Assembly: GCA_963920765.1 (NCBI GenBank)
Contig: OY987245.1
Location: 25,498,727-25,562,726 of the forward strand
Origin: Ulota crispa
Taxonomy: Eukaryota > Streptophyta > Bryopsida > Orthotrichales > Orthotrichaceae
Length of the DNA: 64,000 nucleotides
Reading direction: 5' to 3'
Positions 27,301 to 60,439 of the stretch are shown here, piece after piece; the stretch's first letter is position 1; each line of letters begins with the position of its first letter. The position numbers were made by a program, and so were the translations under genes. The notes under the pieces are model-generated. The model ran no database searches. It was given only the letters and a program-made list of their open reading frames with translations, and had not been told where the DNA came from.

Positions 27301-28281
27301 ATGAAAGAATAAATCAATTCAATGTTCAAATCAAAATCTTATCCAAAAGATGACGCTTACAAGCACATTTGTGTTAAGAGAATACCATGTCTTTTCCCTT
27401 GCTTGGTGGCCCACACACTTGAAATATTGGGCTTTAGTCAGTGTGTTCTTAAAGACCTCCAAAGGTTGCAAACCAATAGTTTTTACATGATGAAGTGTGT
27501 GAACCAAACTGGACTTGACATGGAAAGTTTCTATCATACTAAACAAAATAGCAAGTTAGTCTACAATCAAATAGACATTAAATAGAAGATATGAGATAGA
27601 ATTATTAATATAAATGCAAAGATAAGAACAGAACTCACTTGTTGATTTCATGCATGGCACTTATTAGAGTCCCCATCTTTCCACAAGTATCAAGGACAAT
27701 GCAATCAACATACATGTGCCACTCACAATCTTGAGGATGAATACAATTGATGTACAAGGTCCAAGCCTTGTATCGGTGAATACTGTCACAAATAAAGAAC
27801 ATACAACCTTTGTAAGGAATGAGTTCAAGCCGTGCACTTAGGAACCTCTCAAAAATATTGTTTTCCTCCCTCCAAAATGCACCCCCCTCCATTAGCATCA
27901 ATCTCATTGTAATGTACAATGTCTTGGGTCTCATTGGTGACAGAAACGTAGAAAAGAGTGGAGCCAAAGTTGTAACCATGTCCACAAGTCACCTTTAATT
28001 GATCAATGTCTTGTTGCAAGGTGGGCCAAATAATTGGCATACACACCATCCTACAAAGAGGTATCATAAACCTAGATGAGGTCCAAGGTATAATGCGCAA
28101 GTCTTCAATCAATTGTATGGTATTATTGTTCTGTCGCAGGCAAAGGTCTTCCTTCCCAAGATTGACATCCTCAGTATCTTTTGTGTTTGCTATAGTGTAG
28201 GCCATTGTAGTGCCTACAATTTCAATGTCATCATCTTCTTTGACAGATGCAGATGAAGTAGCTATGTTGCTCTTCAGGCTC
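24330..28281 (-). pseudogene. ParB-like/DNA methyltransferase-like gene, copy A
   Basis: A multi-exon gene read right to left. The first recognisable exon (28281-27639, after an acceptor TGAGCAG) corresponds to the DGNHR domain. Here the motif is degraded to FFICDSIHRYKAWT, and the frame shifts at a G run near 27885. The donor after HEINK is AA/GTGAGT. Later exons are 27546-27331 (VHTLHHVKTI), 27295-27062 (KERIAIGITAAMQSAAKAK), about 26870-26680 (VEMSLEKLQLIA), 26520-26290 (YVEVWQTCLWDSGFMAFF) and 26210-25719 (a lysine/alanine/glutamate-rich coiled-coil linker). The methyltransferase half follows at 25377-24952 (ICEGLLVPDISNPPNAIPHW then LQDDGAIIMF), 24865-24618 (GSRKKDHGLIQMLIES, NIVIDYTVGIG) and 24535-24450 (SIHACCSAGRSLVAMEDN). 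Catalytic-type SNPP is kept, and motif I reads VIDYTVGIG rather than the usual V-L-D-P-F-x-G-x-G. No transposase partner or terminal repeats are seen next to it, so it is an orphan copy. Confidence 0.65.
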
Positions 28282-30480: not shown

Positions 30481-30953
30481 ATTAAGGCATTGGGCAAAAT
30501 TTCAACAAATTGCAAGCACAAAAGCATCATTAAAGATGCTTGTAATGTGATTCTCACCTAAATCCCAAAGTCCAGCAACTTGCAAACAATTGGCAGTGGT
30601 CCAAATTACAACATTCAAATAGATTTGAAGATGATTAAAATTGTGCAACATGAGCCAACATCCAAAGCCAACTCTCCAAGACTGCCATTCTTTAATAGCA
30701 ATGAAGTACTCTAGATAGAATCTTGAAAATGCCAAAATGGTCAATATCAACGCAAACCTTGTTGTAACGTCAGAAAATTTCATTGCATCCATAGCAGAGA
30801 TGGTCACTAATTATCTAGTAAGGACAGACAAAATTTGTGACAACACTAGAAAGAAAGTACACTGTTTAGCCAAGTTGCAGGGCTCCACTCTCGGCATCGC
30901 ACCCAAATTTAACCAAAACTTGTAGCCTGGGTTAAATCATGACAATCAAGGGT

Positions 30954-31016
30954 GCTAAAGTGTGAGCGGGGAGCGGTGAGCGTTGAGCATTGAGCGGTGA
31001 GAGGTGAGCAATGAAA
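30954..31016 (+). repeat. Left terminal inverted repeat of element B
   Basis: Begins GCTAAAGTGTGAGC and continues as an array of GAGC words roughly every 7-9 bases. The first 14 bases match the right end exactly, and the following bases match as diverged GAGC repeats. The boundary is set by loss of similarity outside the GCTAAAG start. Confidence 0.75.
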
Positions 31017-31089
31017 ATTTAAAATCATACGTTTTGAGATTTTTTAAATGTAATTGAGAACATAGAAAGAATATTATGCATAGTCATGG

Positions 31090-31200
31090 GTGGGTAAATC
31101 CACATGGTTTTCAACATTCATCCATTGACATAGATGAATGAAAATAATGTTGGATGGATGAAAAAGAGAATGGATGAATGTAGATGAATGGAATCAAGGA
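31090..31200. repeat. Subterminal ATGGATGAATG repeats, element B left
   Basis: Several copies of ATGGATGAATG/ATAGATGAATG on both strands (CATTCATCCATT, GTTGGATGGATG, GAATGGATGAATG). Equivalent clusters sit near 46780-46850 at the right end and 48110-48250 in the next element. Confidence 0.6.
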
Positions 31201-31379
31201 TTTGGGTTAACATTTTGGATGAAAAGGGTTTAGGGATTCAGTATTAGAAGGTAAATTACATAGGAAATGTGTTATCACAAAGAATGGGCGTACAAACTCC
31301 AAACAATGAGAAGTTAGAATGCAATAAACATTGAGAATGAATCTGTTACCCTTCATAGGGTGACTATAAAATTTCTAGT

Positions 31380-31640
31380 ACAAGTTTATTTTGGAATTTC
31401 CATTGAACTTTGAAGTTTCAATTTCCATTTGTGTTTGACTCCACAACTTCCACATTTGACTCCACAATTTCCATGAAAAGGTAATTCCACAATTTCCATT
31501 AAAGGGTTTAGGCATTATTTTCATTCATCTTTCTCAATTTCCAAGACAGGGTAATTCTAGAATTTCCATTCAACTTTCTCAATTTCCATTTGCATTTGGT
31601 TCTAAAATTCCCTTCAAGCTTTGAAATCTCAAGTACTACT
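31380..31640. repeat. CAATTTCCATT repeat cluster
   Basis: About ten copies of AATTTCCATT or TCAATTTCCATT occur in 250 bases, irregularly spaced. It is non-coding and lies inside the left arm of element B. Confidence 0.6.
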
Positions 31641-33410
31641 TATTGTTTAAGTCCACAAATTAACTGCTGAATGCTAAATTTTCAAAAAACTTTGTAATCT
31701 AGATATTTTATGCTTTACTCCATTTTGACACTTCACTTTATTGATTAAATTAATTCTAGAATTTAAATAGTAAAGTTATCAGATAGAAAAATATAATCAG
31801 GTCAGATGGTAGAAGTTTGAAGTTGTTTGAATTATTACAAGATATTACTTACTAGAAGTTTCTATTAAACAATCTTGTTAATGCAACAAATCCTAATAAT
31901 GTGTTCGGACAATATGAAATGAAATAACACAATCTTGTAAGTGTTTGTCTTATATTAGAGGATGAAAACATAGAATAATATTAGAATAATCCATTGCAAC
32001 CAAAGGGTTGATTTTTAGGGCACCACAACAAGGGAAGCTAGCATAAATGACCAAAAGATTTCAACATGGGACACCTTCGGAATTTGTAGAGGGGTACAAG
32101 GGATTCTTGAAAACATTACAATTCTAAATAGAATATTTGCATTTCTTGACAATTACATAGATTAAAAAGTTAATTTAGAAATGAAAGTGCTACAATCCAA
32201 ATTGCAATGTCATATTGTTTATGCTTGAGATCATTGTACCCAAACATAACATTTTTGTTTGATTTAGATATGCCTCATCATATTTTAATATCTTTCTAGT
32301 CCAGATCAATAAATAATAATCATATGGTATGCTTGATCAACTATTACACTTATAATAGGCTATGATAATTTGAGGTTATGGCTATACATTACTTGAATTG
32401 AATGTTACTGGAGGTCTCATTTGAAATGATTCATAATCCCAATTACAAAATATAGAACGTACCTTAGACACTATATTTCCTTGAAAGGTTAGAAATTATG
32501 TATTTGTGAGTTTACCTTGAACAACCACTTGATAAAGGTAAAATAATTGGTAGCAAGAAAAGTATGCTTTTATTAAGTTCTAGAAGCATGCCCCAAACTG
32601 AGAAAAAAATTCATGCTAATTGCTTAACATTCATATGTGTAGACATACAGTGGAAGCTTTGGATTCTTAGTTAATGTTGTCCAAATGAATTAATATTTTG
32701 ATTTCAATGCAATTAAGAATTTATTAAGTAAAATTTAGAATTGGGCGTGATTGGAATGTTACATGCACTATTTCTGCAATTTAAGAAATGCATATTTTGC
32801 AAATTGGATAAATCTAAAAATCCACTACAATACTAGAATTTCAAACAAAAGGAGTTCATCAAGTTTTATACTTAAACACTTACTCTAGTACTTTGTTTAA
32901 CTTAGGTTGACATGAAGTAAATAATATTGGACCGTCTCATGGCTTACTTGTTCAAAAATATTTTTTACAATGTAGGGACAAGAGTTAAATTCTTTTTGCC
33001 TTGCCCGCAAATAAGGGTTTGCAACCACTAAAAGAGGTGAATATGTAGAATAGGTAATAGATAAAAACTACATAAAAGACATAAAAACAAAATAATGAAT
33101 AGGAAGTACAAGGACAGTTTATCAATATCCAACAATTGATTATAACATTTAAATAAATTTAAGGTTACAAAACAGTAACCACTTTGAGACTATGTTTTAC
33201 TGACAGAGATGGACTTACAGAATTCTGTAGAACCGTAGTTTCATGAGAAAATGTAAGAGTGCACAAGTAGTTAAATGCATCTTGATGGATGCACTGCAAC
33301 TGCAATTGGAGCAAGATAAATAATGTAAAAGTCTGCTTTTGTAACAACAAGATTCAAGCATTGGCCTCTCCTAATCATATTTGAAAATGGGTTTGCAAAA
33401 ATCAAAAATC
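31641..33410. other. AT-rich left arm of element B
   Basis: Non-coding, AT-rich sequence between the CAATTTCCATT cluster and the 3' end of copy B. One 61-codon minus frame near 33350-33165 shows no motif. Confidence 0.5.
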
Positions 33411-36400
33411 AATGACTACTGCTACATTGACTAAAGTCTGCAGTAGTTTCATTAGAGTTGTGCTCCTCCGCTTTTATGTCCATGTACCTCAAGACTCTTT
33501 AGCAATAACGACGTCCTTCCTTCAAAACCTCTGAACTATCTGTCTTTGCACCAGACTCTTGCTCATTATAGCATGGTATAGATCAGCCTAATGATGGACT
33601 TTCATGAGTGTTCAAAAGCCTTAAAATGAGTGTCAAGAGCTATTAGTAAAAAAAGAGGAATTGCTAGGAAAGTAAATCATGCATTGAAGTTTCAAAGATC
33701 AATAAAGATGATGAATTTGCAACTTACTTACCAAAAGGGTTCTCTTGTTGCTTGGACTTGGAGCTACTGCTTGATTCCGCAAATTCTGAAACTACATGCT
33801 TCCGTTTCTTGCGACCAGATTCAGCTGTGTTGTCAACATGCATCAAAGGCTTCAAGACGTGATTGTAAATCTCATAATCTTCCTCAAGCGCAACGATATG
33901 CCTTCTTGAACGGCAACAAGCATGCACACTAGCCCTTGCATATACCAACTACATCTTAGCTCAATAACACAAAGTACTCATAAAGTGTATAAGGTTACAA
34001 GAAGAGGCATGCAAACGCAATAATCTCTAAACCAACAAGCAATTTAAGGACATGAGGTGCCACTGAACAGCAAAAACTAAACTTAATGTTTATAGATATT
34101 CAAATATGCAAATTCTAAATCAATGAGGCTATCATTTCATTTTTAACAGATGGTAAAAAGTAGTAATTACTTGTAGAGGCTGTCACATCAAGTACAACGT
34201 TGTTTGGCTTGGAGCAACTTTCAATGAGTAGTTGCACCATAAGTGGATCTTTTTTGCGAGGTCCTCTCCACGGATATCCATATTGATTCTTGAGCTGAGT
34301 TGCAGCAATGGTAAAGTTTTGCACTACGCCATCACTTGCACAAGTGTTCCTCAATTTTCAAGTTATATGTAGAGTGCCTCAAAACTTGAAGTTCTTCTGA
34401 AACTATAGCATTAGAATAAGAACAACTTTATAGTAAAAAATGTAACATGAAGGAACAATTTCCATAGAAAAGATATGAACAAAATTGTACCAATTATATT
34501 GGTGGGGAGGCCACTTGCTTCTTTACTTGCTTGAATTGAAAACTTGGAGACAATCAATTTTTTCTTCAAGCTCTCTTGAACATATAATGCAACCCAAAAA
34601 CGCTTCGTCTATCAGTGAAGCTAAACCCATTAGATTGTAAATCCAATACCAATAAATCAATCACCCAAAAATTACCAAATAGAATTAACACTTATCGTGC
34701 GCTCATTGTCAGATGCATCCGTAACGTACAATTTGTTGATTCCCCACAACTCACAATCTAATTTGTACCCATTCTTGAGTGCTACCTTTTGAACTGGACG
34801 TCTCACCCCCTCTTTGTCAGGTAGAAAAAATAGAACTGCTGTATCATCTTGTAATGTGCCGTTTGCAAACTCAAAAACGCCCATAGCGTACCCAGGGTCA
34901 AACTTGTTCCAATAAGGAACTGACATGGGGGGTGAGATACATTAGGAACTCAAAGACCGTCAGCAACATCTGCAATGATGAGATCAAAGCAAGCCTCCCG
35001 TTTACAAATTCCACCAAATGAACGTTGGACGCTTCTTCTTGCTTGCATGATCAAAGATCCAATGAGTACCTTGGAAACAATAGAGAAGTTAAAAATACAA
35101 ATGCAATGACAGATGTGGGAAGGGAATTACCTTCATTGCAAAATCAACCAACTGAATTTGCTCCACGAACTGAACCTTAGTCTCTCTTGTGCTCCATTGC
35201 CTTTTTAATGGAATAGTTCAAGATAAGAGAAGTTGGAATGATGTCTTCAATCTTAGTTCAAAGAGAGGTTGCTGCTTCCCACTATGAAGACACAAACATG
35301 TGTTTGGGACTGCTTGAATGGTCAGGCAACTGAGGCAGCTCGGATAGAACCTCACCAGAATGATTTGGAGACGGCAGCTTCTGCGCAGGCAAGGACGTCC
35401 CCGCAGCTAAAGCAACTCTTGCCGTGGAAGAAGTCTTGGCAGCTAATGAAGCCTTGCGCGGAAGAGAGGCTCTCTTTGTAGGAGCGGGATTTTTCTTTGC
35501 AACACGTCTGCTCTTTTGCTTCAGCTCCGCTTCAAGGTCTTCTTTGTCGTCTGCTTCATCATCGTCAAAAGATTCTAGTGGGATCGCAGGGGGGGACAAG
35601 GTTTTTCTCTTGTTCTTCACTGGCTAGAACATAGCTTTTGCAACAATCAACATACCATGGGCATTTCACAAGCTCCCCATAGTCAATTTTCATCAGCTGG
35701 TATGGAGTGAATATGAATTCATCCAATGACTTGTTAGTCCAAGCAGAGAAAAAGAAGGGAATTTGACTGCTTGTAATGGCTCCTTTCAAATGCAATTTGC
35801 GCTGAAAGTACCTAAAGAATCAAACAAATTCCAAATCAATTCCCCATATAATCAGGCAACAAATGTAATGTAGAGATTGAACTTCTAAATGGAATTGAAC
35901 AACAAAAGTAAGTTTTGAGGTATTATCTGTAAACCAGGCGGTGCATGGCAGTAGTAGTATTTTCCTGCTCAGGGAACAGTTCTGTGCAGTTGTATCTTGG
36001 TTTCCTATTGAAAAAACTAGAGTAGGCACAATCCCATAGCAAACATTGGTTATGCTCCACGTAGTCTCCAATCCGATCCAATGTGGCAATAGAAGCATAG
36101 TCTATCCCAATGCATTGTGTGTTTGTTGTGTCATTGAAATAAAAAACCAATGCTTCTTCTAGCTGCAGCAAAGAAGATATTCTATTGTTCAATGAATGCT
36201 ACATCCTCAAATACCAATCATTGTCTTAAAACATGAAAATGAATTGACTAAGTGAAAAAGTGTCATTAGTTTTAAATTGCTAAGTACTGAAGTATGCCAA
36301 GAACTTTTGCTAGTAAAATAGTTTTACCTCATCCCAAAATGATGCCTGGATCAACCAATGCCTAAGTAGTGCTTCTATTGGTGCAGAGATAGGAAAATGT

Positions 36401-36979
36401 AGAGCTTTCTTGTTCATGTCTGAGGAGTTCCACATAGACAACCACCTCCCTTTGTATACTCCTTAGACACTTGTTCCAGAGATGATTTGGAGCTTCTCCA
36501 CTGTCATTTCAATCTTGTCTAGTGAATGATTGCTGTAATGAGTGTTAATCTGCAAGGATGTGAGATCAAGGCAATTTGCAAACTAATCAGGTTCAAATAA
36601 TCAAAAAACATTGAGGAACATTTTTTGTTTCATCTCTATCTTGACATGAAATAATCAAGCAAATTGAAGTGCCAATTGGAACATATAATTTTAGATTGTA
36701 AACTTTTTCATGGCCATTGAGTTCATTGAAGCTTCAACAGCTTCACGCAAAAGCATATTTATTAGCTTTCTGCCATCCAAAACTTAGGAGTAACTGGGCT
36801 AAGGGTGCAACCCCTGACTATCAAAACCAAAAGCAAACGAGAGACATCCAATCTTAGTTACAAAATGAATAAGCAAGCAAGTCCTGTCTTGCCCAATCCA
36901 CAACTTTCATGCTGCCAAATAGGCCCTCCTAGTAACACAAGAGGGACTCCAACCTCCCCTATTGTGCCATTCATATTCA

Positions 36980-37975
36980 TGCCTTGGAATCCAATGAGCT
37001 AAGAAGGCCTCCTCAGAACCTCAGCACAACTTGTGAGCCCCCCTTAGATTCTTCCTTGATTTAACCTTGGAATCCGAGGTGCTTGTTAGGCATATAGAAA
37101 ATCCCTCATTGGAAACTAGAGAAGCTCTACAGCGCCATCTAGTTCCTACCTTGGAATCCGAGGTGCTTGACGGCACTCAATAAATTGCTCACTAGATACT
37201 GGAGAACCCCCGCAGCACCATCTGGTTTCCTACCTTGGAATCCAAGGTGCTTGACAGGCACTCAAAAAATCCCTCATTGGAAACTAGAGAACCCCTGCAG
37301 TGCCATCTAGTTTCCTACCTCGGAATGTGAGGTGCTTGACGGCACTCAATAAATTGCTCACTAAACACTAGAGAACCCTTGCAGTGCCATCTGGTTTCCT
37401 ACCTCAAAATCCAAGGTGTTTGGCAAGCCCACCTAAAAAACCACATCAGCCTTCCAAGATCCCCATAGTGCCATCTAGTTTTTTAGCTCGGAATTTGAGG
37501 TGCCAAAAAAGCCCTCCTCTAATCTGAAGTCGGACTCCAAAGATACCTGCTGTGCCACCTAGTTCTTTACCTCGGAATCTGAGGTGCCTGGCTAGCCTTT
37601 CAAATAACAAAACTTGCTCTCATAGGATCACTTTGACACACTCTTTTTTACTACCTCAGGATCCGAGGTGCCTGGCTAGCCTTCCACAATACCAAACTTG
37701 CACTCTACAGACAACCACAACAACCTCCCATTTCATACCTTGAAATCCGAGGTGTTAGGCTAGCCTTCCATGTAATTGACCTTGCAGTCTGGATCCCTTT
37801 GGCAATCTTACTTTTACTATATTAGAATCTGAGGTGCTTTGCAGGAAGTTCATTAAGCCCCTTTGAATTATAGCTAACACATGATTCTAAGAATTAACCA
37901 TTTTAAGACCTGCAAATTGTATAGCAATTCCTTCATCTAGCCTACCTTGAAATCCAAGCTGCCAAACAGGACCTG
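36980..37975. repeat. 84-bp tandem repeat with palindromic core, in a copy B intron
   Basis: About twelve units each contain a variant of CCTTGGAATCCGAGGTGCC. Cores start near 37065, 37149, 37233, 37318, 37402, 37486, 37570, 37654, 37738 and 37820, a very even spacing of 84 bases, with flanking units near 36983 and 37947. The core is an odd-length palindrome (CCTTGGA-A-TCCRAGG). The array lies between the exons at 38740 and 36540. Confidence 0.85.
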
Positions 37976-40900
37976 TTTGCTAAACGGATCAGATTCTGAA
38001 ATGGGATATTGAAGAAACTGAACATCCAAAAATTCAACCCAATTTCCCTTCTAATTTTGAGAAGCATTCCAATGCTAATTTTTCAGAATTTGTTGTTTGG
38101 TTTGATAAGCAATTTAGACACACTTTTATAGAGAAATTTGGGTGACAATTCCAAGCTTTATTCTTATTAAAATATGAACATATAAAATTCACCAGCTTTT
38201 TCACAAAAGTTGATACTACTTTATTAAATCATACATAGTTCTAGAGAAGGATTACCGAGATTGGAAGGAGGAACAGCAAAAGAATCTCCACTATATGATC
38301 AGTTTGCATTACTCCTATAAAAAAAGAGAAAAAAGATAGTTCCTTATTCAGGTAAAAATTGGTCTTTGATTCTGAGTGGCAATTTTCAAGACCAAAGTTA
38401 AACAGAGGTTCCTAATTTTGACAGTGACACAGAAGCATTATTGTTGAATATATCAAATTGCAAGCTAAAATTACCTCAAACAAACTTGTTGAGGCCCAAA
38501 ATGACTGAAATTGGGTCAATTGAATGCAATTGTGAATATTTTGAAGATATGGGTATTGAAACCATTACTTCTAAGCATGTTAAAGTACAAATCCATCTTA
38601 ATTATAGGACTGACCATTAGAAAGAAAGCCAAAACTTGAGCATGAAAAGAGCCCCTCAGATTCTGAGGTACGTTTACTGTTGACCAATTTGGAAAAAGCG
38701 CCAGTAGAATAAAACATGAGATTATTGAAACTTGATTGTAGCATACCTCTTTCAACCATCTTTTCCCATTTATGGGTCTAGCAATGGAGCTCAGCTTCTC
38801 AAATTCCGTGCAATGCATCTTCAAGTTTCCTTTCTCAGCTGCCGTCATTGCAGTTTGAATTCCAATTGCTGTTCTTTCTTCCAATAGAACGCTCTCCTCG
38901 TAAGCATGCGCAACTGCTTTGGCTGTTGCATTCACCTCTTGCTATAAACCAGCAAATACTTAGGGTTAAAATAAATCTAGCAAAAGGAAATGCAAACTTT
39001 GATTGTAGGAACTAAAATGACATTACTTACTTGGTGTAAGAATCAAATGAAGATGTCTGCTATCATTGGATGCCAACACAAAGTCCTTGTCTGATTCTTT
39101 TAGGCTTTGTATTCTTCTTTGGTCAAAAGGTCTTTTAAATCTGTAAGCTGGAGAGACCCATAAATGTTAATCTTATGAATCCGGTGGCAAACATTTGTTG
39201 TAATGTGGGCATTTTTAGTTTGTTTGCATTATCATGATTAAAAAAAAAACAGTCAGATTCCGAGGACACTATTCAATATTATCAGAAACATGATTATTAT
39301 TTTCTAGCATGGAATTTGATAAACACAAACAATCAAAAAAAGTTCAGATTGTATATTAGAATTCATATCCAAGAATATGTTAAATGAACTTGATTACAAA
39401 TTATTACCTGTTCACCTCGTTCATGGCATGCATGACTGTAGCCGTACGATCTTTTGTATTCAACAAAATGCAATTCATAGAGAAATGCCAAGAGATGTCT
39501 TCACTTTTCATCTTCTTGATATAATTTGTCCAAGCTACCACTCTATGGTTGCCGTCCCATACAAAAAACATGTAACTAGTCAACACTCTCTTTTGAGGAT
39601 GTTTCAATAGCTGAATCTTGAACTTCTCGTTCTCAACTACCCACATCGGATCCCAGATGCTTTGCACGGCCTCAGAAACACGCTTGACCTCTCCTTTGTT
39701 GTTAGTGATTGACACGTAAATGAACCTGTGATTGTCATTGTATCCGTGTACAGACTCTGACTCTACGCAAGTCAAGTTGTTATGCAAGACCGTGCAAACA
39801 AGAGGAAGAGAAATCATTTGATAGAGTGGAATCTTAAACAAGCTACACTCCTCTTGCTGAAAACAAACTCTCTTGATAATCTTGTTCAAATCAAGCTTGG
39901 AATTCACTTGGAACTCCTCAATAACCTCGTCCTACGTCTTCTAGATTGCAAGAGGGGCCTCAACCATCTCCACATCTTGCATTGCCAAACGGCAACTAGT
40001 CAAAACAACATATTGACAAATATCACTAGCTAGCAACATCTTTCTAGCATAAGTGTAGGTTTTACCACATCAAAAGCTCAGCATGGCCGTGATTTGATTG
40101 ATATTGAGCCAGATTCATGTTTTTAAAAGATGACAAAAGGATGTATTTGACCCTAACTTGAAGCTAATCGGGCTCAACACCTCATTCTTTATTCTTGAAT
40201 TTGCTCTTCCTATACGACTAGGGGAAAATTCAAATCATAAACATTGTCATCTAGTTACAAATGTGTACTTCATTTAACCCCCAGCACAATCAAAATTGAA
40301 AGCCGGAGAAGCCAACTACTACTTCTCAGAAGCTCAATTCATTTCTATGAAAACATACGCTAACCTACAACTACATGAAATGAACCTGCACAAAATCAGA
40401 GATATCAGTTACACATTTGAGAATCAAAATTTGAAGTCAATTCCTGTCATGCCCTGGTGAATCAAAAATACCTTGGAAAGCAAACTAGAACACATTAACA
40501 AGCCTTGATCTTTGACATCACTTGCATAAACAAACTTGCAACCAAAACTCAAGATCTCAAATACTAGACAAGGAAGAAAGTTGTATGCTTGCCATTGCCT
40601 CTATTGTCAAATGCGGCGGCTGCTGGTCTTGCAATCTAGCACCATCCTTGCCCAGCCCTAAGTTGAAGCCCCCCACTTGAAGCAGCGGCTCCATGTTTGT
40701 GTTGGTGGAGTTCTCGGCCGTCATTGTAACCACTATTTTGTGGATCACAAGCACAAGGTTGTTTGCGCCCTTGTCGCGCGACTGGTCTACATTCAAGTCT
40801 AAACCTTCAAGCTCTGTGGCCCCAACGTTGCCTTGCATCTCAAGGTAATCAAAACCCTGGCCGCTCTGTAGATCTGCATCTCCTTCAATCGGGATTGCAT

Positions 40901-40994
40901 TGTGCGCCATCTTTTGATCCAAACAGAATGAATCACCAACATTGTTTAAAACTCATGAATCCAAATCATTTTTGTTGGCGTCATGATGATTGCA

Positions 40995-41003
40995 CTATTT
41001 ATA
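40995..41003 (-). promoter_or_regulatory. Internal TATA-like box
   Basis: On the minus strand this reads TATAAATAG, a close match to a plant TATA box. It lies about 73 bases above an ATG at 40922 that opens the second coding block of copy B. It could drive a shorter transcript starting within the first intron, or be chance in AT-rich DNA. Confidence 0.3.
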
Positions 41004-41552
41004 ACTAAGTTATACGACAAGCCACAAGTATACATCCCCCTAAAGAACTAACAAATTTTTTCTTGAAAATAACAAACTAATAAGCAAGGTATCAATTTGT
41101 GTAAAGTAAGGTCGGAATAATACAGCAAAGAATTTAACATGTAACACAAAACAAAAAAATGCAAGAGCATGAACAAAATGTCAAATTGTTTAGTGCGTAT
41201 TTCCAATCGAATACCAAAATCTCCCAATGCAGGTTGTGAGCTCAATAAGCTAGTCACGTCATCAATAGCACCAATTTCGTCAATGTCACATGTGCTCAAT
41301 AAACTATCAACGCTATCCTCCAAGTTATGCACTTCCCTTCTCTCATTCTCATAGGTAAGTCTTTGCACAGTGCCACTCCTCCCTGCTGCAGATCCTCTAC
41401 CCAATGGATGACTCATTTTAGCCCTTGCCAATTGCTTTCTAGTTGAATGTAGTAACTTATGCTTCCGCCTCTTCTTTTGCTCAGCTTCTAGCATGCTTGG
41501 TAATAAAAATAACTACAAATAGAAAGGTCTGTTCTTGCCCTTGCCTAGTGCA

Positions 41553-41559
41553 CCTTATA
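41553..41559 (-). promoter_or_regulatory. TATA-like box of methyltransferase-like copy B
   Basis: TATAAGG on the minus strand, about 59 bases upstream of the ATG at 41494. Copy C has a TATA-like box about 49 bases above the equivalent ATG, which supports both start assignments. The roughly 575-base gap to the plus-strand transposase gene would be a shared bidirectional promoter region. Confidence 0.4.
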
Positions 41560-42069
41560 CTAGTTCCACCTTAGTTTTAGATCAATTGACATCTGTCACT
41601 GCCAGCAGGTGATATAAAGGCATGTCTACCATATGCCGCTTCCAGACTTAATTATAAAATCCAAATAGTACAAACTAGTTCAAATTAAGATATGCCAAAT
41701 TTGCTAGATGCCACCTATATGTGTCAACATTAACTACCAGGGCCACATGTAGCTTTGAAAAAGATTACAAAAGATTTCCTTTTAATTCAAAAATGTAAAG
41801 TTAGCATGACTAATTGCTTAGAGTCATTTGCTTATGGCTCAACCACCTTAACAAAAACGCTGACATGAATATCCTTAAGCTGCATACATGTTGACTCATT
41901 GTTTAAATCTTCCTTTACCCATAGTGTATCCATTCCTTGCTTGCAAATTCTTCATGTTTCTTGAGAATTTAGTTTTGAGAGCAAGAGTTCTTTAGGTCAT
42001 GCTATAAGTGTTGTAGAATGAATTTACCAGGATTGAACATGGTTACAATTCATGCTGATGGATCAACAA

Positions 42070-45000
42070 TTCCAATTTCTTTTCCTTGTGGTGATGAAGG
42101 ATAGTTGTGGGTGCCAACAGTAGTTTTGGGCCTACATTTTGGTTTTGATTGCAGTAATATTTTGGTGGAAGAAGAGCTTTACAGTCCTGCTAGAGACAAG
42201 ATTTTATCCACTATTAATTGCTTCCAAAGTATGATAGATGGCAATAGTGGCTGGAATCTCCATACAGGAAGATACCACACTTTTGGCACCCCTATTGCTC
42301 CAACGCCACTATCTGCAATACTGTTAACTCCTACCTTTGCAATTCTACCTTTCAAATACCTTGCGTGGCTCTTGAACCAACCAATCACCTTCATCACAAA
42401 AGAATTCTTGTGACTAAATCCTTTGATGATGAAGATGTTTTGATGAGTGGTACTTTGGAGTAGCTAACACCCATTCTAGAAAACAGCATAGAGCTAGATT
42501 TTGTCTCCACCCAAACTACACCTGCTGGCCCTTTGGCTTTAGATCCCTCAAAGGAATTCCCTTTCTTGTCCATTCTTGATTGTTTGAAGTATCTCCAATC
42601 TTGTCCAAGGGCTAGGAATGTTTTGAAGTTTCTAAACTTTCATACTATACGTCAAAAGGTAGTTTGTCATCTTCCGCTTTCCTTCAACGGAGACATCATG
42701 TTTGAATTACTTCCAAAGTCATGTGTAATAAGGGGAACATCTTTCTCTTTTGGGTCAAACTCTGCTTATTTTGTAGCACAGAAGTTACAAGGTATGGATT
42801 GTAAATTTGACGGGAACAATTGGACCTATACACAAACAACAAACATTGCCAATAACTACAATTTGAAGTTTAGGTCTTTATTTTGTGTGGGTCATTTGGT
42901 TTGTTCTAATATCTTGTGCCTGAGGTTCCGGCGTTCTAATGTAAATAATGAGATGGAGTAGGAAAGATGCTCACCAAGTGTTTACCTTATAGATAAACCC
43001 CCCCTCCCAAGTCCACCATAGTATGTTGTCTTTGCAAAGAACCCCCTTATTGTAAATTTGTTTGTCCATGCAAAATGTATAAAATTCTGAACCCATACAA
43101 CTTCCCAAGAGCATGTATTCATTTAGGAGTGCACAATCACCCCATTGGAAGGGGTGTTTGTTGCAATTCTATTGAACATACCAATAATTTGATTAAAGAA
43201 CATGTCTCCATGACACCCACTGCAAAACCATTTGCAATTGCAATAGCAGCAACCAAGGATTTCCTAGATACTGTTATGTTTTGTGAGGAAGGGGATGATG
43301 CAATACGAAAGCCTTTATGTGGAGAGACCCTAGAAATTGCAATGAGCCAATTTGCTACCCTTAGTTCTCCAAATATTTGGAACAAGATTTCTACCTTCTA
43401 GAATAGTACAAGTGGATTTTACCTGGACAATATTATGCTCTTGAAGTTGAAGAGTACGTATTCATTCATTCAAGACAGTATTTTCCCAAGGCACGGGAAA
43501 GAAAAGGTTTATCTTTTTAAAATGTCAAAGGATGGTCCAGCCAATGGTGTGGACTTGGTTTGGCAGATGCAACCTGGAGGCGACTTGCAAAACTATTGGT
43601 GCATGTTTGATCACGTCAAAGATGTGAAAGGTTGGACAACCATGGCAGCTCATGTCCATGACTCCGAATATTGCAAGGTTTTGACAATTTGTGTTTGTAA
43701 TATGATGAGTGAGGATGCTTTGTCACAAACACAAATGTGGAAATCCCTTACTTTAGTCATGGCACGTCATGGTGTTTCAGCTCCAAATTTTAAGGGTTTT
43801 ATGGCAAATAATGCCATGGCAAATTGGCATGCCGTCCGCATTGTCTATGGGAGTGGCAATAAGCTTGAGCCAATGCCAAATTGAGAGCGTTCTTGTTTGC
43901 TTCATTAAACAACCTCCCTTAACAGACATATGGATAAACTCATCCGCCAAGAGTTTAGAGAAATGCACAAGCACCTATGCAAACAATACAAGGATGCTAA
44001 GACTATTAGTGAAGCCAAGAAACAATACCTTGCTATCAAGGCAAGGTGGCTTTCTTCAAGAGCTGCACCTGAAGAATCACTGCGGGAGTTGGATGACTAA
44101 TTAGGATTTTGGCATTTTAGGTATCTCAACAATGGGGCTCTTACTATGAGCTGGTAAGTGCTCCTTTGAAACTTTTATCATTTATCTTTGCAAGTATGCA
44201 GAAAATTAAGAAAGCTTTGCTACATGATATTTTAATGAAGGAAATTACTATGCATGTTATATTATTATTTGACGGTAGTTTCAGTCCCTAGGTTCCAAGG
44301 ATAAAAAGAGTTATCATTAAAAGGTTGATTAGTGTAGGTAACTTCCTTGACTAATATTCATGTTTTGTGCTTGGAATAGGAACTAGATGATGGTGAACTT
44401 GCAGAGATGCCATCTTGTAACTTGTAGGAGACTGTGCACAACAAATGGATGCAAATGTCAACAAAATGTGAGAAGTGTTTATACATTGCAACGGCTGACA
44501 AAATGACGCAATCTGTTCAACAATCTACAAACTATTGGGCTTATTTGCAAGGAGCACCTTGTGGCAAAGGTCCCCATATAGACGAATTGCGACTTTGTGT
44601 AGCTAAGCGGACCTAAGACCCTGCCAAGTTTGCGCAGATTGTTTCCAAACTTCCCAATGCATCCGAGTTCATGACTCGCAATCCGCACCTTGAAGGAGAG
44701 GAGATTTTTGGATGTGCTAAGAGGAAGCTCAATATACCACCAAGAGCAAATAATGACTCCTACCATCACAACACAGTAAGCTTCTCTATGCCCAAGGTTA
44801 CAACTAGGTCCACCAAGGCACATACGGAGGCAGGACCTTCAACAATTACTCTTTGCATAGTAGCAAAGCCTAGTGCTTCACCTTTGCATGCTACAAAGGT
44901 GATTGAAACCAATTGCAATCCATCCTTGTGGCATATTGCAAGATGTATGAAGGAAGGAAAATGTTGTTATGCAGTGCAAGCAGAAAACAAGAAGAAATGT

Positions 45001-45789
45001 GGTGCAAAGATCAACAAGTTGAAGAAGAGGGGAACTGTGGCTCCAACGTACAATGGCCATATAAGAGAGTATGTTACAAAGGCAGTAGTTAGTATGGATT
45101 TTTGGTTCTGTCCTGACAATTTACACTGCTGTGCAAGTGCACCCAAATGTAAGTGGGTTCACGACCGATCGTCAGTGCCCAAAATATGGCCTGTCATTTA
45201 TGGTACGCGCCTCACTAAAGCTGAGATATTATCCTTGGAAGAAGCTGGATTTTAGCTATAGACAATGTTGACGGATGCATCTTTGAAACATACCTTTGAG
45301 GATAGGCTTCCAAATGATGTTGTCGATTCAAGAATTCCACCATTAGACCATCACATTGTTTTACCGGCAAATGCTAAAACCCACCTGACAACGCGTAATG
45401 GCAGAACCATCAGATGTAACTCCAATGCACCAACCATTGACCATCAAAACAAGTGGGAGACTATCCATAACCTGAAGGCAATTGTTGAAAGTGTAGTTTT
45501 TATACCCTACCCTAGATATGGTAGAGTGATATTCGTACTATCTGGCATACACCCAAATCAGACTACTTATCGCATCACAGTTTTAGACTTTCCATCTTGC
45601 ACTTGTCCGAATTTCATTTCCATGAGTGTAGCTGCTTTAGGAACTAGAAGATTCTAGGTAAACTGTAAGCACTTGTACTATATCTACCAAATCTTATGCA
45701 AGGACAACCCTGAAGACAACAAGTACGTACATGCTCCTAGTTTAAATTTTGAAGAGGTCAAGCAGCTCTTATTTGGTAGCAACATCTAA
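42070..45789 (+). pseudogene. SWIM-finger transposase-like gene of element B
   Basis: Plus-strand coding in pieces: 42070-42413 (GWNLHTGRYHTFG), 42530-42960 (FNGDIMFELLPKSC, VGHLVCSNILC), and 43000-43130, where a C-x-x-C-type region and CIHLGVHNHP form a GCM/WRKY-like zinc-binding domain. The core at 43430-44100 contains MFDHVKDVKGWTTMAAHVHD, then NFKGFMANNAMANWHAVRIV and KARWLSS. After an intron (about 44150-44390) come NKWMQMSTKCEKCLYIATAD, HLEGEEIFGCAKRKLNIPP and a cysteine-rich block. A SWIM finger follows at 45595-45685: the CTCPNF pair, then the C-x-H of VNCKHLYYIYQ. It ends at TAA 45789. This layout resembles MULE-type plant transposases (RNase H core plus SWIM). The Asp expected in the ADSA motif is Asn here. 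Stops occur near 43400, 43884, 43905, 44099, 44616, 45255, 45261 and 45657, so the gene is dead. Confidence 0.7.
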
Positions 45790-46200
45790 TATAAAGATTT
45801 TATACATAGCTGCAAGTTCCACTTCTATCACACAATCCCTTCAAGTAGTTACAATTTATTTAGGCTTACTATATTTTGTAATGCATAAGATTTATGTGTA
45901 GTTGCTCATTTGCATATCTCCGTATATGATGCATATGGTAACAACTATAAGCATCTCATTCCTTGTAATGTTAGTTGTAGTGTAATTCAACTTGAGTGTG
46001 CTAAACCTTGTAATCATAAATGTTTTTCACTAATTGCATTATTTTCTATCTTTTAGATTGACGCATTATTGCACTTTGAGCTTTGAGTACATTTGGATGT
46101 TTGAATTTTTGACTTGAACATGTATGAACAATCTACTAGCAATGCCAAATTGAGGCAACTTATTTTGCAAATGACATCAAATTGCCAACTTGGATTTAAG
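45790..46200. other. Right arm of element B, non-coding
   Basis: AT-rich sequence downstream of the transposase stop with no frame of note. A 3' untranslated region would lie here. Confidence 0.45.
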
Positions 46201-46510
46201 GAGCCTAATCTACCTAGTTTTTTGAACTTTCAAATTTTGGACTTTTCTGGCTCTAATTTGCCTCAAAATCCAAGGAGCCTAATCCACCTAGTTTTTTGAA
46301 CTTTCAAATTTTGGACTCTTCTGGCCCTAACTGGCCTTGGAATCCAAGGGGCCTTCCTCAGTGTCGTGGAGCTGGTTTTGATTCAATGTATGGGACTTCT
46401 GCATACGTCTTGGTTTTGAAAAGCCCTTGCTGACCCTTGGCCAAGTGTTGTTGTGCGCCAACAATGACTGTTCTCTGATGTTCCACCGCTCTTGGGATCC
46501 GAGGGGAGTA
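46200..46510. repeat. Short tandem repeat with TTGGAATCCAAGG cores
   Basis: A unit containing GAGCCTAATCTACCTAG...TTGGACTCTTCTGG and a core like CCTTGGAATCCAAGGGGCC recurs about every 74 bases (near 46201, 46275 and 46349). A further core, CTTGGGATCCGAGGGG, lies near 46494. The core belongs to the same palindromic family as the 84-bp arrays elsewhere in these elements. Confidence 0.65.
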
Positions 46511-46779
46511 AAAAGGACACCAAATCCAAAATATGTTTAGCCTCATGAGTCTAGTTTATGTTCCCTGGATCAGATTTGTATAAGTTATTTAAATTTAATA
46601 TATGTACTTCTAGATTTACTACATAGTTGTATGAGAATCACCAAACTATCTTGCATAAGGAAGATTTATAGGACGTTCTTGAAATTGGGATCTATTGGTT
46701 AATACCTCAAATATTTTCAATTTCAAACATATTTTAATATACATTTGACCTCAAATTGAGTGCAGATTTTGTTCACGTT

Positions 46780-46860
46780 AAATGATGACTAGATGGATGA
46801 TGGATGATTTTCATTCATAGAGTAGATGGATTTCATTTGCGCATCATCTAAGTTGACTTG
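46780..46860. repeat. Subterminal ATGGATGATGG repeats, element B right
   Basis: AGATGGATGATGGATG and related words near the right end mirror the left-arm cluster at 31090-31200. Confidence 0.5.
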
Positions 46861-47046
46861 TTGATCCATTAAATTCTTTTGTTTTTCTACTACTTTATCA
46901 ACCATCTAGCTCAATATTGCCTACCTTGACACCATTGAAGTACTATCTTTAATATGTTTAAATATTAGAAAATAGTTGTTTTCTTCTTATTTCTAGATCT
47001 AAATCATCAAATTGGTTACTTTTTCCCTTACAAAGCCGTTTTAACC

Positions 47047-47130
47047 GCTCAAATTTTACTGCTCATTGCTCAATGCTCTCCATTCATTGCTCAATGCTCT
47101 CCATTCATTGCTCCTTGCTCACACTTTAGC
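47047..47130 (-). repeat. Right terminal inverted repeat of element B
   Basis: Read on the minus strand from 47130: GCTAAAGTGTGAGC, then GAGC words including two direct copies of a roughly 22-base unit (GAGCAATGAATGGAGAGCATT). The first 14 bases are identical to the left end at 30954. Confidence 0.75.
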
Positions 47131-47934
47131 TTCGTTGGGTTTATAGGCCACTTGTAAGAACCATTCTTTTTAGTTTACATGATGTTGCTATTTGTTTACA
47201 CTTTTTGTTTTGTTCTTGCTCAATTTTGTGATTTTCATTACAAGCAGCAATGTGACTAAAATATCTCAACATTAGATGCTAGTCCTTTGAAGTTCCACGT
47301 TTAATTAGGATGCGATGGATGGTGTTGGTAATCATATGATATTAAAAAAGTAAATACGTGACATTATGGAGGTTATTGTAATTTTAGTAGTATGAATGTA
47401 TTGCAATCCTGTATCTGTACTTTGTTTTGGAACTTATAGTAAGTAGGCAGAAGAGTGTAGTCAAAAGTGATAATTATGATCACCTGCAACTCATCTTGAA
47501 TCAACCGTGACACAGGAAATTATTGTGGATTTTGTATCCTTCAATGCTAAATTAGGTTATTTGTGAGTCCGGCATTAACTGATTTTCCCATTCTCAACTG
47601 TGATGCATGTCACACTAGATGTGTATATCTATGCAGCATGTTTTAAGAATGTTTGGCAATATTTTGATTCAAAGACACAGCATCTCTTGGTTTAGAGTGA
47701 GTGTTGGTTGTCTTTATTATTGGGGAGAATTCTTTTGGCCCATAATTATAAAAAGCGTTACTAGTTTCCGAATACAAGAAAATAATAATGTGACTATTCA
47801 AAGTGAATATGCGAATGACAACAGAACATGCGGTGACTTTTGCCCAACATTTTTGGACCAAGTACATGAGTGATGTCTCCTTTGACTAGGTTTCTCTCTA
47901 CGCCAAGAAGAGACACTAAATAATGCTCAAGGTT
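47131..47934. other. Spacer between the two elements
   Basis: About 800 bases of AT-rich DNA lie between the right end of element B and the left end of element C. Opposite overlapping frames at 47619-47873 have no recognised motif. It is probably pre-insertion DNA. Confidence 0.4.
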
Positions 47935-50211: not shown

Positions 50212-53200
50212 AACACCAAGAATTTCTTCTTTTTGGGCTCCGGCAATTTAGTTGGTAGCGCTTTATTAAGAGATAAGAGCCAGCCCTTGTATATTGCCTT
50301 GTCGAACTCCAATCCAATGACATGACAATCACTTCTCTGACATGCCCAAATTGCTACACTTGCTCAAGTAAAAAATAATAATTAGAAATGTTTAGTCCTT
50401 TAGTTAGAAGTACAATTTGATGTGTTACATAATTGATACTATTCTTGCTCAAGAACATGGTTAACAGACATGAAGATAGGATTTATGGTATTGAAATGCT
50501 AGTTGGTTTGCACCTGTTGGCACAAAACAATCAAGACAACATCATTCACTTTAGTGAATGCCTCAATTAGAATCTGTAATAAAGTCTAGTCTTTCTTCCT
50601 AGCGCCACGCCAAGGAACGCCGTTGTTCACTGGTCAATGCAAAGTTGAGTGGCTCAATTTTGGCAAAAGTCCATATTCTCAAAGTCCCTTAAGTGGGTTT
50701 AAGGATTTTGATTCAAATGTTATTTTGTTATTGCATCAAGTGTCCGGGCGGCTAAGTGGCCTCTTCATGTCTACAACAGACTTATAAACTCAATCCAACG
50801 GTTAGATGTCTCTATATTTGTTCGTTTTGAAATTACCCACTATAGGCTGTGTTCTAGGGCTTAGACTTAAATTAATCAAAGTTATTCAAAAAGTCCTTAT
50901 TGCTAGAAGCACTTCTAGAACATAGAAAAAAATTCAAGTTGAAAAAAGAAAAATGGGGAAAAAAAAAAAACAAAGGAGAAAATGAACTTGTAAGATCCAA
51001 GGTTTTAAAAGGCATTAAAAAGTCCTTTGCAAACATTCAATACACATCTAGAAAATAAGATTATAATTTCTTAAAATTTTATCCAAATACCCACTAGAAT
51101 TTGAGTCCTTTGTAATCTTTAAATAACTATATCATCTTTACAAAGTCCTTGAAAAACTTGCTGCCAGCTGAAATGTCACACTCATGTTTTTTCAAGAGTC
51201 CTTCACACTTCCATAAAGTGCCAAAAAACAAATTGAGCAATATTATTGTAGTTATAATGAAGTTTAAATCACTACAATGGACTTTTTTTTCTTTTTTGAA
51301 AATTTCCCATGTACCTTTTAGGCATTTGATAATTGGATGTGTGCAGTTTTCTATAGTGTGACATGATTTTGAACCACTCAACCATGCATTCACCCTCATG
51401 AGCCAAGTAGTTGAACTAGTGAAGTTCATGAGGACGTCCTCCTCTACCACAACTACAAATACAATATTCTTGGCCATCAAAACAGACCCTTATATTCGAA
51501 ATAGACCACCATGTACACATATCTTCCTACACAAAACATGGAAATGCATTCAAAGAATGCTACAAATTATTGTATTGACAGCTTACCACTGACATCCTCA
51601 AGGAAACCAGCAAACTTGTCAACACCCCTAATGCAAAACTCGGAAGGCACAGGTTCCTTATTGTACTTGACCCTTGCGTAAAGAATGATCTAGAAACGTC
51701 TTGTCTGCTTCAAATACAAGAGATAATTAGTAAATTCAGCGGTTTACAAATGAATGGGTACTACACTAAGTTTAGATAGTTAATGAAAACTTTGCTGAAC
51801 AATTCGGATCAAATCCGTTAGAGTTTAAGTCCTTATGGTGCAATCAAGATCTGCGTAGGCAGTCAGAGGCTCCTTGTTGATGCCCCATCACTCCATGAAT
51901 CCTTTGAAAGCATATGTCACGGCATCTTCATCAACAACCATCCTAATCTTAGGGTTGTCTGGGAGAAAAAACAAGACAACACCATCATCTTGTAACATTG
52001 AATTTGCAAATTCAAAAATCCTTTCCGCATATGCTTCATCCACTACATTGTAGTAAGGTACAAATGTTTCTGGATTTGAAAAATCTAGAACTAGAAGGCC
52101 ATCTAGGAAATTGCCAATGAGTAAATCAAGATAGGCTTCTTCTTTTACAACGCCTCCAGTTTGCCCATGCTTCCCTCCCCGTACCTGCATCTTAAAGCCT
52201 CCAAACACAGAAACACTAATAAAGTATACCTATCATTTACCAAGAAGTACGGATAATAAGAATGCATATTAAACTAACCTTATTGGCAAATTGTATGATG
52301 GAAGTGAACTCTAGACATTTGGTGCCGGAATCAATGTCTTTGGACTATAGGTCTCTCTTCTCCTTGAACTCCAGTGCTTCCTGTATAGAAAATTTCATAA
52401 TTAGAGTGGAAGAAGTCAGCTTTGGTTTCTCTAATCAAAGTAACTCTGCGGCTTTCTACTAAAAGTACATGAATCCCAAATCAAGTTTACAGCTGACCAT
52501 ACCTATACCACAAGGAAGAATAGTTTTTGTAGGGTCATCCACAGGTGGGTCATAGTGATCATTTGATGGGTAGTCTTCACTGTCAGTTAGAGCTGGTACT
52601 CTTGCAATAGACCTCCTAGGGACTCTCCTCTTAGCTACTCTTGGAGCAAGCAAGATTGGTGCAGCCAGCGCCTTCCTTGCCCAAAGTTTTCCTATGGTAT
52701 TTGGAGCCGCCTCCACCTTGGAATTGAGGCCAAAGTCATCATGATCTTTGTCATCTCCTTCCGACAATACTTTGATAAATGCGGAAGGTGGTGCTTTTCC
52801 TTTCTCCACTAACTCATCAAAGGGTGCATACGGGTGGCAACACTCAATGTACCAAGGGCAAGATTGTAGTTCTTGTGGAGAGAAACTTTCCTTCTAAAAA
52901 TTTGTGAAAATGAATTAAGGTGAATTCTATTCTACCCAACTCTACAGCTGCTTTGGGATATCCCGTGGCTCCATTGCCCCTTTACCAAGCTAACTCTCAC
53001 TTGAAATACCTGCAGTAGCAAGCCAAAATTTTGTATCAATATGTGAACTAAAAGAATAAGTTTTACTTACAAATTATTGCGTTTGGAGATGCAACATAAA
53101 TCAAAATATGTCTGAAACAAAAGAACAATGGAAACACAAACTTGTATACACATTGTTGAATAGCACTCAAAGTGCCCTTCTGCTTAGAGAAACAAATACC

Positions 53201-59200: not shown

Positions 59201-59483
59201 CCATTTGCAATCTGTCATTGATATCACTGTCCTCAGCTCCGCTTTTGTCAATATCTTCTAGATTGGTAACAATTTGTACGGATGGCTATTGACATATATA
59301 TTCTTTGACATCCTCTTGCGCACTATGACTACTTAATCTTTGCTTAGGTTTATTAAATTTTGATGCAGCAGCTGACCTCAACTTTTGACTCATTTTCAAA
59401 CGTTCTAGCTGCTTCTGGGTAGAGAACACCAAACTCCTCTTACGCCCCTTCCTAGAGCCCCCGTCTTGCATGGTTACCTCCAC
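50212..59483 (-). pseudogene. ParB-like/DNA methyltransferase-like gene, copy C
   Basis: Start chosen at ATG 59483, matching the start of copy B. Exon 1 is basic (GRKRSLVFSTQKQLERLKMS). Exon 2 (about 58258-58075) ends in donor CCG/GTGAGT. The DGNHR exon (57643-56928) reads SGFMLFTWDGNHRHQAWMPF then CQWHFSVDSYLL, donor CCG/GTAAGT, with five TAG stops in frame. Next are 56745-56550 (LVHLLHKINTYNTLKLHEFK), 56442-56218 (MAEGLNEAMAKATK), about 53800-53580, 53400-53200 (degenerate) and 53015-52490 (CPWYIECCHPYAPFDE and a basic linker). The methyltransferase half is at 52400-52270, 52208-51840 (DLLIGNFLDGLLVLDFSNPE, LQDDGVVLFFLPD), 51720-51600, 50640-50514 (VPWRGARKKD, VNDVVLIVLCQQ) and 50370-50212 (SVAIWACQRSDCHVIGLEFD). 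SNPP has become SNPE and motif I has lost its Asp and glycines, so this copy would lack activity even apart from the stops. Confidence 0.7.
54430..56165. repeat. Long array, period about 85 bp (about 170-bp dimers), in a copy C intron
   Basis: About twenty degenerate units. Cores alternate between GGACCTAAGAAGCC-like and GGATCCAAAAAGCC-like forms. In the left part similar cores recur at 54444, 54614 and 54784, and at 54531, 54701 and 54869, i.e. every 170 bases. From 55280 to 55990 cores such as TTCTTGGAATCAAGAAGGG and TTTTTGGACCCAAAAAGCC continue at 80-92-base spacing, with same-type cores about 170-175 bases apart. Most cores are near-palindromic. The array sits in the intron between the coding blocks at 56218 and 53800, the same intron that holds the 84-bp array in copy B. 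Confidence 0.8.
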
Positions 59484-59531
59484 ACAAAAAAAACAAAAAA
59501 AACAAAATGTGGGAATGATGGAAGACTTGTT

Positions 59532-59539
59532 CTATATAT
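59532..59539 (-). promoter_or_regulatory. TATA-like box of methyltransferase-like copy C
   Basis: ATATATAG on the minus strand about 49 bases upstream of ATG 59483. The position is equivalent to the TATA-like box of copy B. Confidence 0.4.
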
Positions 59540-59559
59540 GCTACTTTGGTCATGAAGAT

Positions 59560-60425
59560 GTGCTCACATCCCTATTGACATTCATCCTCCCTAAAAAGGT
59601 GAGGGGACATACATTTTTAAATAAATGTTAACCCGCTACCCAAATGTTAGTGTAAACTACTATTATCAAAGAAGTATGTTTTTTGAATATCAGCTATTTT
59701 AAAGTAAAAATACTAGGACCACTTTTGCTTCAAGATTGTATGTGCCACAAAGGCTACTCCAAATAGTTTTTCCTACAAAAGTCTTTAGAGATTTCTTTTT
59801 TTATTAATGAAATTTGTTATAAGGGGTGCCTCTTTTTTCAACTTATAGGCCTTGACATTTCTACTTACTAACTTTGGCTATGATTTCGAATTAAAGATGT
59901 TCAGATTTCTACCTACCGCTTGCGCCATCATATCTTAAATTAATAAAGTTGACAATTGTACATACTAAAGACGCCATTTTTTGGGAATTTGAAGTGCACA
60001 TGTTAGTATTTACTAAATACATCCACAATTTCCAAATTAAAGGTGTTTACCTTTCTACTTAAATAATGTGCTTGATTTTCTTAAATTAGAAGTGTTGACA
60101 TTCCTACATTCTAAATATGTTTCCATTTTTTGAACTAAAAGTGTATAGGTCCCTACTTACTAAATGCACACCCATCTTTCAAATTGTAGTTGTTCACTTT
60201 TTTGTTTACTAGTTGCGATTCAATTTTCAAATTAAAGTTGTTATTCTTAACCATTTCTTATTTTTGAAGGGGCATTTCACTTTGTTATCGTCAAAGTCCT
60301 ACATAATACACATACATAGGAGGGGTTGAATGCTTGGATTGCACAGCTCTTCCTTCTTTTACATTCTCTACCAATATTGTTTGCATGTGAGCTTTGATTG
60401 TTGAGTTAAGATGGCAAGGGTACAT
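59560..60425. other. Divergent intergenic region of element C
   Basis: An AT-rich stretch of roughly 0.95 kb between the two head-to-head genes. Short recurring phrases (AAATTAAAG..GTT, TTTCTACTTA, TTACTAAAT) repeat loosely every 60-70 bases between about 59830 and 60250, suggesting a decayed array. A bidirectional promoter is expected here. Confidence 0.45.
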
Positions 60426-60439
60426 GGGGAAAGCAATAA

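Follow-up and report, generated by a model that had tools for sequence, protein, structure and literature searches.

A transposon family of Ulota crispa that pairs an apparently MULE-like transposase with a divergently transcribed ParB-methyltransferase-like gene

Transposons carrying a protein that joins a ParB-like domain to an amino-methyltransferase domain are already known from algae. In the brown alga Ectocarpus, the giant DNA transposon Sola1-1_Ec32 encodes, on the strand opposite its transposase, a protein of 1104 aa with ParB-like and N4/N6-methyltransferase domains; as far as the accessible part of the 2025 paper goes (PMC12477816), green and red algal cases are also cited (Iyer 2011, Petroll 2025), and the authors proposed that the accessory protein modifies the element's own DNA. 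Fusions of a ParB-CTPase with an N6_N4 methyltransferase are frequent in phages, according to the accessible part of PMC12704722. Here we describe an element of this kind in Ulota crispa, found in a stretch of 64,000 nucleotides (contig OY987245.1, positions 25,498,727 to 25,562,726) that we call the window, where a putative transposase gene stands next to a gene for a ParB-methyltransferase-like protein. An initial annotation of the window knew of no plant cut-and-paste element so described, a view that, as worded, the Ectocarpus element does not support. The ParB-methyltransferase accessory class is already known and the Ulota family is a variant of it; what is new is the transposase type, the scale within one genome, the tests of fold and homology, and a recurrent change in the catalytic motif. 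No pairing of a ParB-methyltransferase protein with this type of transposase was found in the literature searched.

The element is a large cut-and-paste DNA transposon of a family with many copies in the genome. The exact 14-base inverted ends (GCTAAAGTGTGAGC) lie where they had first been placed, at 30954-30967 on the plus strand and 47117-47130 on the minus strand, and this 14-mer occurs 116 times (53+63) in the 274.8 Mb and 157 contigs searched, compared with 0+1 times for a reversed control, so it can be taken as the terminus of a repeat family. Reading of 44 distinct ends (loci L001-L028 and the window) placed the element end 7 nt beyond the 14-mer, with a CA start in 39; two or more TGAGC are found in nt 15-100 of 39 of the 44, as against 22 of 5000 random 86-nt stretches of the window. 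The two ends differ: type B (CAGGGGT/CAAGGGT...) is on the ParB-methyltransferase side and type A (CAGCGCA/CAACGAA...) on the transposase side in the window, EL16 and L022, the three copies that match both genes. Fifteen convergent end pairs less than 20 kb apart, the window's included, were chosen by eye from 100 of the 116 places, and 9-bp target duplications were sought 6-8 nt outside the 14-mer. All nine positions agree in 7 of the 15 pairs and at least seven in 12, while a control of mismatched pairs reached at least seven in only 2 of 210; the pairs below this level are L013 (6), L009 (4) and the window copy (3).

EL16 (C3:9695764-9711509 with flanks) is a copy of 15.1 kb whose ends enclose both genes within a 9-bp duplicated site (GCTATGTTT), in the same divergent layout and with 56-88% protein identity to the window. 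Because it carries both genes in duplicated ends, the pairing lies inside a real insertion, complete in this one copy. In L022 (9.1 kb, likewise with a duplicated site) the ParB exon and the pieces beside it are present, along with the transposase's C-terminal half. Ends that do not enclose both genes, which the initial annotation had named as contrary evidence, do occur: 12 of the 15 pairs span 2.0-5.3 kb and match none of 20 open reading frames (ORFs) of either gene from the window. Taken literally they speak against the proposal, and we read them as non-autonomous derivatives.

The pairing recurs across the genome, where all match counts are detection-limited and represent lower bounds. The ParB exon has at least 144 matches, merged to 128 loci, and the transposase exon at least 135, merged to 123. 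A divergent transposase lies within 20 kb of 89 of the 128 ParB loci (90 if any orientation is allowed), and counted from the transposase side a partner lies within 20 kb at 90 of the 123 loci, whereas random placement gave a mean of 0.76 divergent pairs (maximum 4) and 3.1 in any orientation (maximum 7). The exon with methyltransferase motif IV has at least 116 matches at 111 loci, 77 of which have a same-strand ParB exon no more than 12 kb upstream (random 0.4, maximum 3), and all three parts stand together at 66 of the 128 ParB loci. As in the algal accessory class, one gene with both domains is found on the strand opposite the transposase and within one transposon.

In the window, the inverted repeat extends beyond the 14-mer to 68 nt at 75% identity (30947-31014 and 47070-47137), and the true termini, 7 nt outside the 14-mers, read CAAGGGT... 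on the left, matching in sequence type the B end of EL16 (L017), and CAACGAA... on the right, matching in type its A end (L016). The two genes are indeed transcribed apart, as first described, with minus-strand exons at 33.7-41.5 kb and the plus-strand transposase at 42.5-45.7 kb. This copy is decayed: the transposase frame (42997-45744) has 17 stops, 9 of them outside an inferred intron at ~44101-44409, and the minus-strand gene, whose 5'-most conserved ORF has its first ATG at 41494, contains in-frame stops and a frameshift.

The reading we favour, and consider rather probable, is that the window holds a decayed copy of a two-gene, autonomous-type, MULE-like (Mutator-like element) cut-and-paste family with a ParB-methyltransferase accessory protein that is mainly non-methylating. 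In the protein, a ParB/sulfiredoxin-type domain would stand at the N-terminus, with a permuted (beta-class) N6-adenine DNA methyltransferase-like domain after it. For its DNA target, its nucleotide, its lack of methylation and its role, we infer a scheme in which the ParB-like part would bind a nucleoside triphosphate (NTP) and DNA and gather the protein on the repeat-rich element ends. The methyltransferase-fold part would then be mainly a platform that binds S-adenosylmethionine (SAM) or DNA rather than an ordinary amino-methylase, since all copies read have E, K or D in place of the catalytic aromatic residue, and the complex may either oppose silencing of the element by the host or regulate how the transposase acts at the element's ends.

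The transposase profile found 269 homologous proteins in public data, 120 of which were used to assess motif conservation. D527, D593 and H625 are conserved in at least 95% of these where covered, with the histidine in FHW, and a Cys/His cluster is present; the second D, an N in the window copy, is conserved in at least 90% of those among the 40 aligned homologues whose sequence spans the site. Only 2 of the 120 extend to the stretch of the third acidic residue (NLAExxH), and CxC...CxH was seen in P0004 alone, as CDC-x19-CKH. By its ends, duplication length and motif order, the transposon appears MULE-like: duplications in the 8-11 bp range of MULEs are found in the family (12 of 15 pairs) and not at the window copy, and the terminal inverted repeats are long. 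At the domain level the MULE-like assignment of the initial annotation was not confirmed: PF10551 matches 71 places in the genome and none of the 123 loci or 40 homologues. Eight long and 40 aligned homologues gave only weak Pfam transposase matches in one member each (Transposase_mut, E 0.18; zf-Tnp_2, E 0.76), and models of KDZ, Sola and other superfamilies were absent at E up to 10 in the eight and up to 1 in the 40, an absence compatible with membership. Because PF10551 and the other transposase models fail at loci and homologues alike, we do not file the element as a MULE. It is possible, although on the whole doubtful, that the transposase is not of Mutator type and comes from another or undescribed DDE superfamily, as these failures suggest; against this stand the 9-bp duplications, the long inverted ends, the spacing of the two D residues with FHW after the second, the NLAExxH stretch and the C-terminal CxC...CxH. 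The family brings to light a transposase lineage of 269 public homologues without a Pfam transposase model above cut-off.

The ParB/sulfiredoxin-type fold proposed for the minus-strand gene was borne out on the predicted structure of a homologue, P0131 (92 rows), rather than on the window copy; with a ParB-type fold in that model, a structure with neither of the two proposed folds is not what was found. Across the 92 aligned sequences the DGNHR motif, which we take to sit where ParB has GERR, keeps D in 91, G in 86, N in 91 and H in 92. Pfam matched no ParB model on this part; DUF1015 appeared weakly in 2 of 29 ParB rows (best 0.027) and 15 of 92 (best 0.057), and DUF6551 in 2 of 92, both presumably ParB-like families. 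Profiles of the ParB part found nothing credible among PDB sequences, and the whole-gene profile A1 passed none of the 7994 candidates scored from the protein database. The ParB exon has 145 homologues in public data and a median ratio of nonsynonymous to synonymous substitution (dN/dS) of 0.19, and is under purifying selection.

The proposed likeness to amino-methyltransferases held up as well, in that profiles relate this part to N6-adenine DNA methyltransferases with the permuted motif order IV...I. A profile of 11 copies had CcrM as its top PDB match (E 4e-7), with motif IV through to the C-terminal motif aligned colinearly, and one of six rows including the distant locus L093 matched CcrM at 1.8e-9, DpnA at 1.7e-4 and MboIIA at 0.05; neither profile A3 nor A8 matched any of 1400 shuffled sequences made from seven control proteins. 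Pfam N6_N4_Mtase was found in 3 of the 11 joined members (best E 3e-5, the first member falling under the curated cut-off) and in no single piece from the window. Searched genome-wide at E up to 10, PF01555 matched 7 places without passing its cut-off at any, and two of them (C8:9968292 and C2:32943976) fall at the expected motif I exon of a ParB-methyltransferase gene. Among the PHROGs, the ParB and methyltransferase parts matched only two methyltransferase families, at E 0.14 and 0.18.

DPPY is the established catalytic motif of amino-methyltransferases, and motif IV of the form (D/N/S)PP(Y/F/W) is absent from all 16 copies read. Compared with ADPPYNL of CcrM, none of the 16 keeps the first P and the fourth motif position carries E (10 copies), K (3) or D (3), while 11 still have the initial D and 7 the second P (DIPE, DVPK, DMPE and similar). 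Decay of the window copy alone does not account for the change, because open exons show it and so does the divergent L093 (DVPE). With DPPY changed in every copy read, ordinary amino-methylation is argued against, and the earlier suggestion that the protein marks or protects element DNA is doubtful in so far as it invokes methylation. A rival view is that the protein works as a DNA methyltransferase through an unusual motif IV (e.g. D-x-P-E) and marks the element's DNA with 6mA, 4mC or another modification, protecting it or flagging it for the transposase; the Ectocarpus authors proposed modification by their protein of the element that encodes it, with no mention of motif IV (accessible part of PMC12477816). 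The beta-class order, the retained motif I region and the recurrence of the D and second P as far as L093, which looks like conservation rather than random decay, would fit it; we nevertheless judge it unlikely in view of the lost first P and aromatic residue and of a motif I that is often degenerate (VTASTS, TVGIG).

A ParB-methyltransferase gene in exon-like pieces is also present on the 4.7-kb contig of L093 (CADCWO010000058.1), filed under a cyanobacterial metagenome-assembled genome and probably a misbinned eukaryotic contig. It was the one locus from a scan of genome contigs; in viral contigs 128 stretches fitted the pattern and 0 were confirmed, and three phage methyltransferases translated for comparison had no ParB domain.

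The ParB-methyltransferase gene could also be captured passenger cargo without a role in the transposon's life cycle, as the 12 end pairs that match neither gene and the apparently weak constraint on the methyltransferase exon would allow. This seems improbable given that the divergent layout is kept at 89 of 128 loci, most of whose ParB exons are only 27-48% identical to the window's, and given the low dN/dS and public homologues of that exon. That the two genes are separate neighbouring elements nested in the window, where the copy is without a target duplication and two related copies adjoin, is hardly credible when EL16 has both genes inside one duplicated end pair, both window ends resemble EL16's two ends and pairing is so frequent genome-wide.

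Several observations weigh against the favoured reading of a two-gene family with a ParB-methyltransferase accessory protein. At the window copy the best flanking 9-mer match is 3 of 9; the window ORFs of the methyltransferase part found no match in L022; and no partner in any orientation lies within 20 kb of 38 of the 128 ParB loci or of 32 of the 123 transposase loci. In the transposase, Pfam models for MULE, SWIM and other transposases all fail to reach cut-off. The model of the window's own ParB exon (29 rows) had a pLDDT of 52.8 and no fold match, and was replaced by P0131, for which Foldseek gave modest E-values (6.7e-3 at best, with none below 1e-3). Only 76 of the 92 sequences keep the arginine of DGNHR, and the ParB profile did not recover the ParB-like YbdM of E. 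coli. The methyltransferase profiles were built from hand-joined exons and score E. coli YhdJ at E of only 0.31 and 0.16, and the open methyltransferase ORF of L093 alone matched no methyltransferase. The dN/dS of the methyltransferase exon is 0.50-0.71 in close pairs (6 pairs, 4 copies), so constraint on it is weaker or has decayed.

Table 1. Positions of the element and its parts in the window.
Feature	Position	Strand	Remarks
Whole element	30947..47137	.	CA...TG termini, 16,191 bp; flanking 9-mers do not match
Left terminal inverted repeat	30947..31014	+	Type B end, CAAGGGT-GCTAAAGTGTGAGC; TGAGC-rich subterminal repeats at 30962-31009
Right terminal inverted repeat	47070..47137	-	Type A end, CAACGAA-GCTAAAGTGTGAGC; subterminal repeats at 47063-47120
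ParB-methyltransferase-like gene	33724..41512	-	Exon-split, decayed; ORF pieces from 41494 to ~33.7 kb
ParB-like exon	39407..39931	-	175 aa open; DGNHR motif within 39530-39559
Downstream conserved exon	38747..38938	-	EVNATAKAVAHAYEE...RWLKE
Motif IV region	34672..35126	-	IIADVADGL within 34953-34988 vs CcrM IFADPPYNL; frameshift between ORFs in window copy
Motif I exon	34115..34357	-	NNVVLDVTASTS at 34169-34204
C-terminal exon of methyltransferase-like part	33724..33948	-	RRHIVALEEDYEIYNHVLKPL at 33844-33906
Transposase gene	42464..45745	+	Decayed
Zinc-finger-like Cys/His cluster	43024..43146	+	CCLCKEPPYCKFVC...ACIHLGVHNHPI
Catalytic-core-like stretch	43600..43827	+	MFDHVK (first D), NFKGFMANN (second D)
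SWIM-like CTC...CKH	45589..45681	+	Broken by stop at 45655

Further copies of the ParB-methyltransferase gene lie on the minus strand of the window at 24445-28076 and 50526-63917, the latter paired with a plus-strand transposase at 60755-63917, and all three copies have one orientation; no exact 14-mer end was found within the window for either of these two. Tandem arrays with a period of ~84 nt occur in two element copies (37064-37422 and 62752-63134), placed differently relative to the genes, and another with a period of ~170/340 nt at 55315-55972 falls within the third copy's ParB-methyltransferase gene region. Elsewhere in the genome, motif IV exon copies at C6:61592, C2:146318, C4:323167 and C1:41294424 (G000) are 76-87% alike to the 25-kb copy; these four lie within ~0.33 Mb of a contig end, with no ParB exon among the matches listed upstream, and are perhaps subtelomeric derivatives. 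The window also contains a DUF659 fragment at 17834-18346 (E 3.5e-17), which we take to be hAT-type, and DUF7869 fragments on the minus strand at 3133-4170, spread over two ORFs.

If the same helper joins transposons of different superfamilies, this would point to a general way for transposons to manage their DNA or chromatin, one that plausibly came from bacteria or phages; whether such helpers methylate DNA or simply bind is a question on which the altered yet recurring catalytic motif bears directly. One can tentatively envision an NTP-gated DNA clamp joined to a conserved pseudo-methyltransferase (D-x-P-E) as a self-encoded factor for anti-silencing or end assembly that unrelated superfamilies (brown algal Sola, MULE-like here) either acquired separately or have retained from a very early time.

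The transposon protein can be set beside several known systems. METTL14-type pseudo-methyltransferases also have a methyltransferase fold with an altered catalytic motif under selection, within the MT-A70 family and with an RNA substrate. ParB/Noc/PadC/KorB, sulfiredoxin and SerK/SbnI have the fold of the ParB-like part in common with it, at 6-15% identity to the P0131 model, with no helix-turn-helix or dimer domain demonstrated in the transposon protein. CcrM (PDB 6pbd), a beta-class N6-adenine DNA methyltransferase, is colinear with it from motif IV to the C-terminal motif (chain residues 31-253), whereas the transposon protein has D-[IVM]-P-[EK] and variants for DPPY and is fused to a ParB-like part. 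VANC of Vandal MuDR elements, and SET and TET/JBP in other DNA transposons, are likewise transposon-encoded epigenetic helpers, with protein domains different from these (accessible part of PMC12730594). The phage and prophage ParB-CTPase-N6_N4 methyltransferase fusions combine the same two kinds of domain and share the link to mobile elements (accessible part of PMC12704722), but are prokaryotic, and neither "transpos" nor "plant" occurs in the main text of that paper. Sola1-1_Ec32 shares the layout and differs in its Sola1 transposase from the MULE-like Ulota element with its 9-bp duplications, the two systems being compared here by description (accessible part of PMC12477816).

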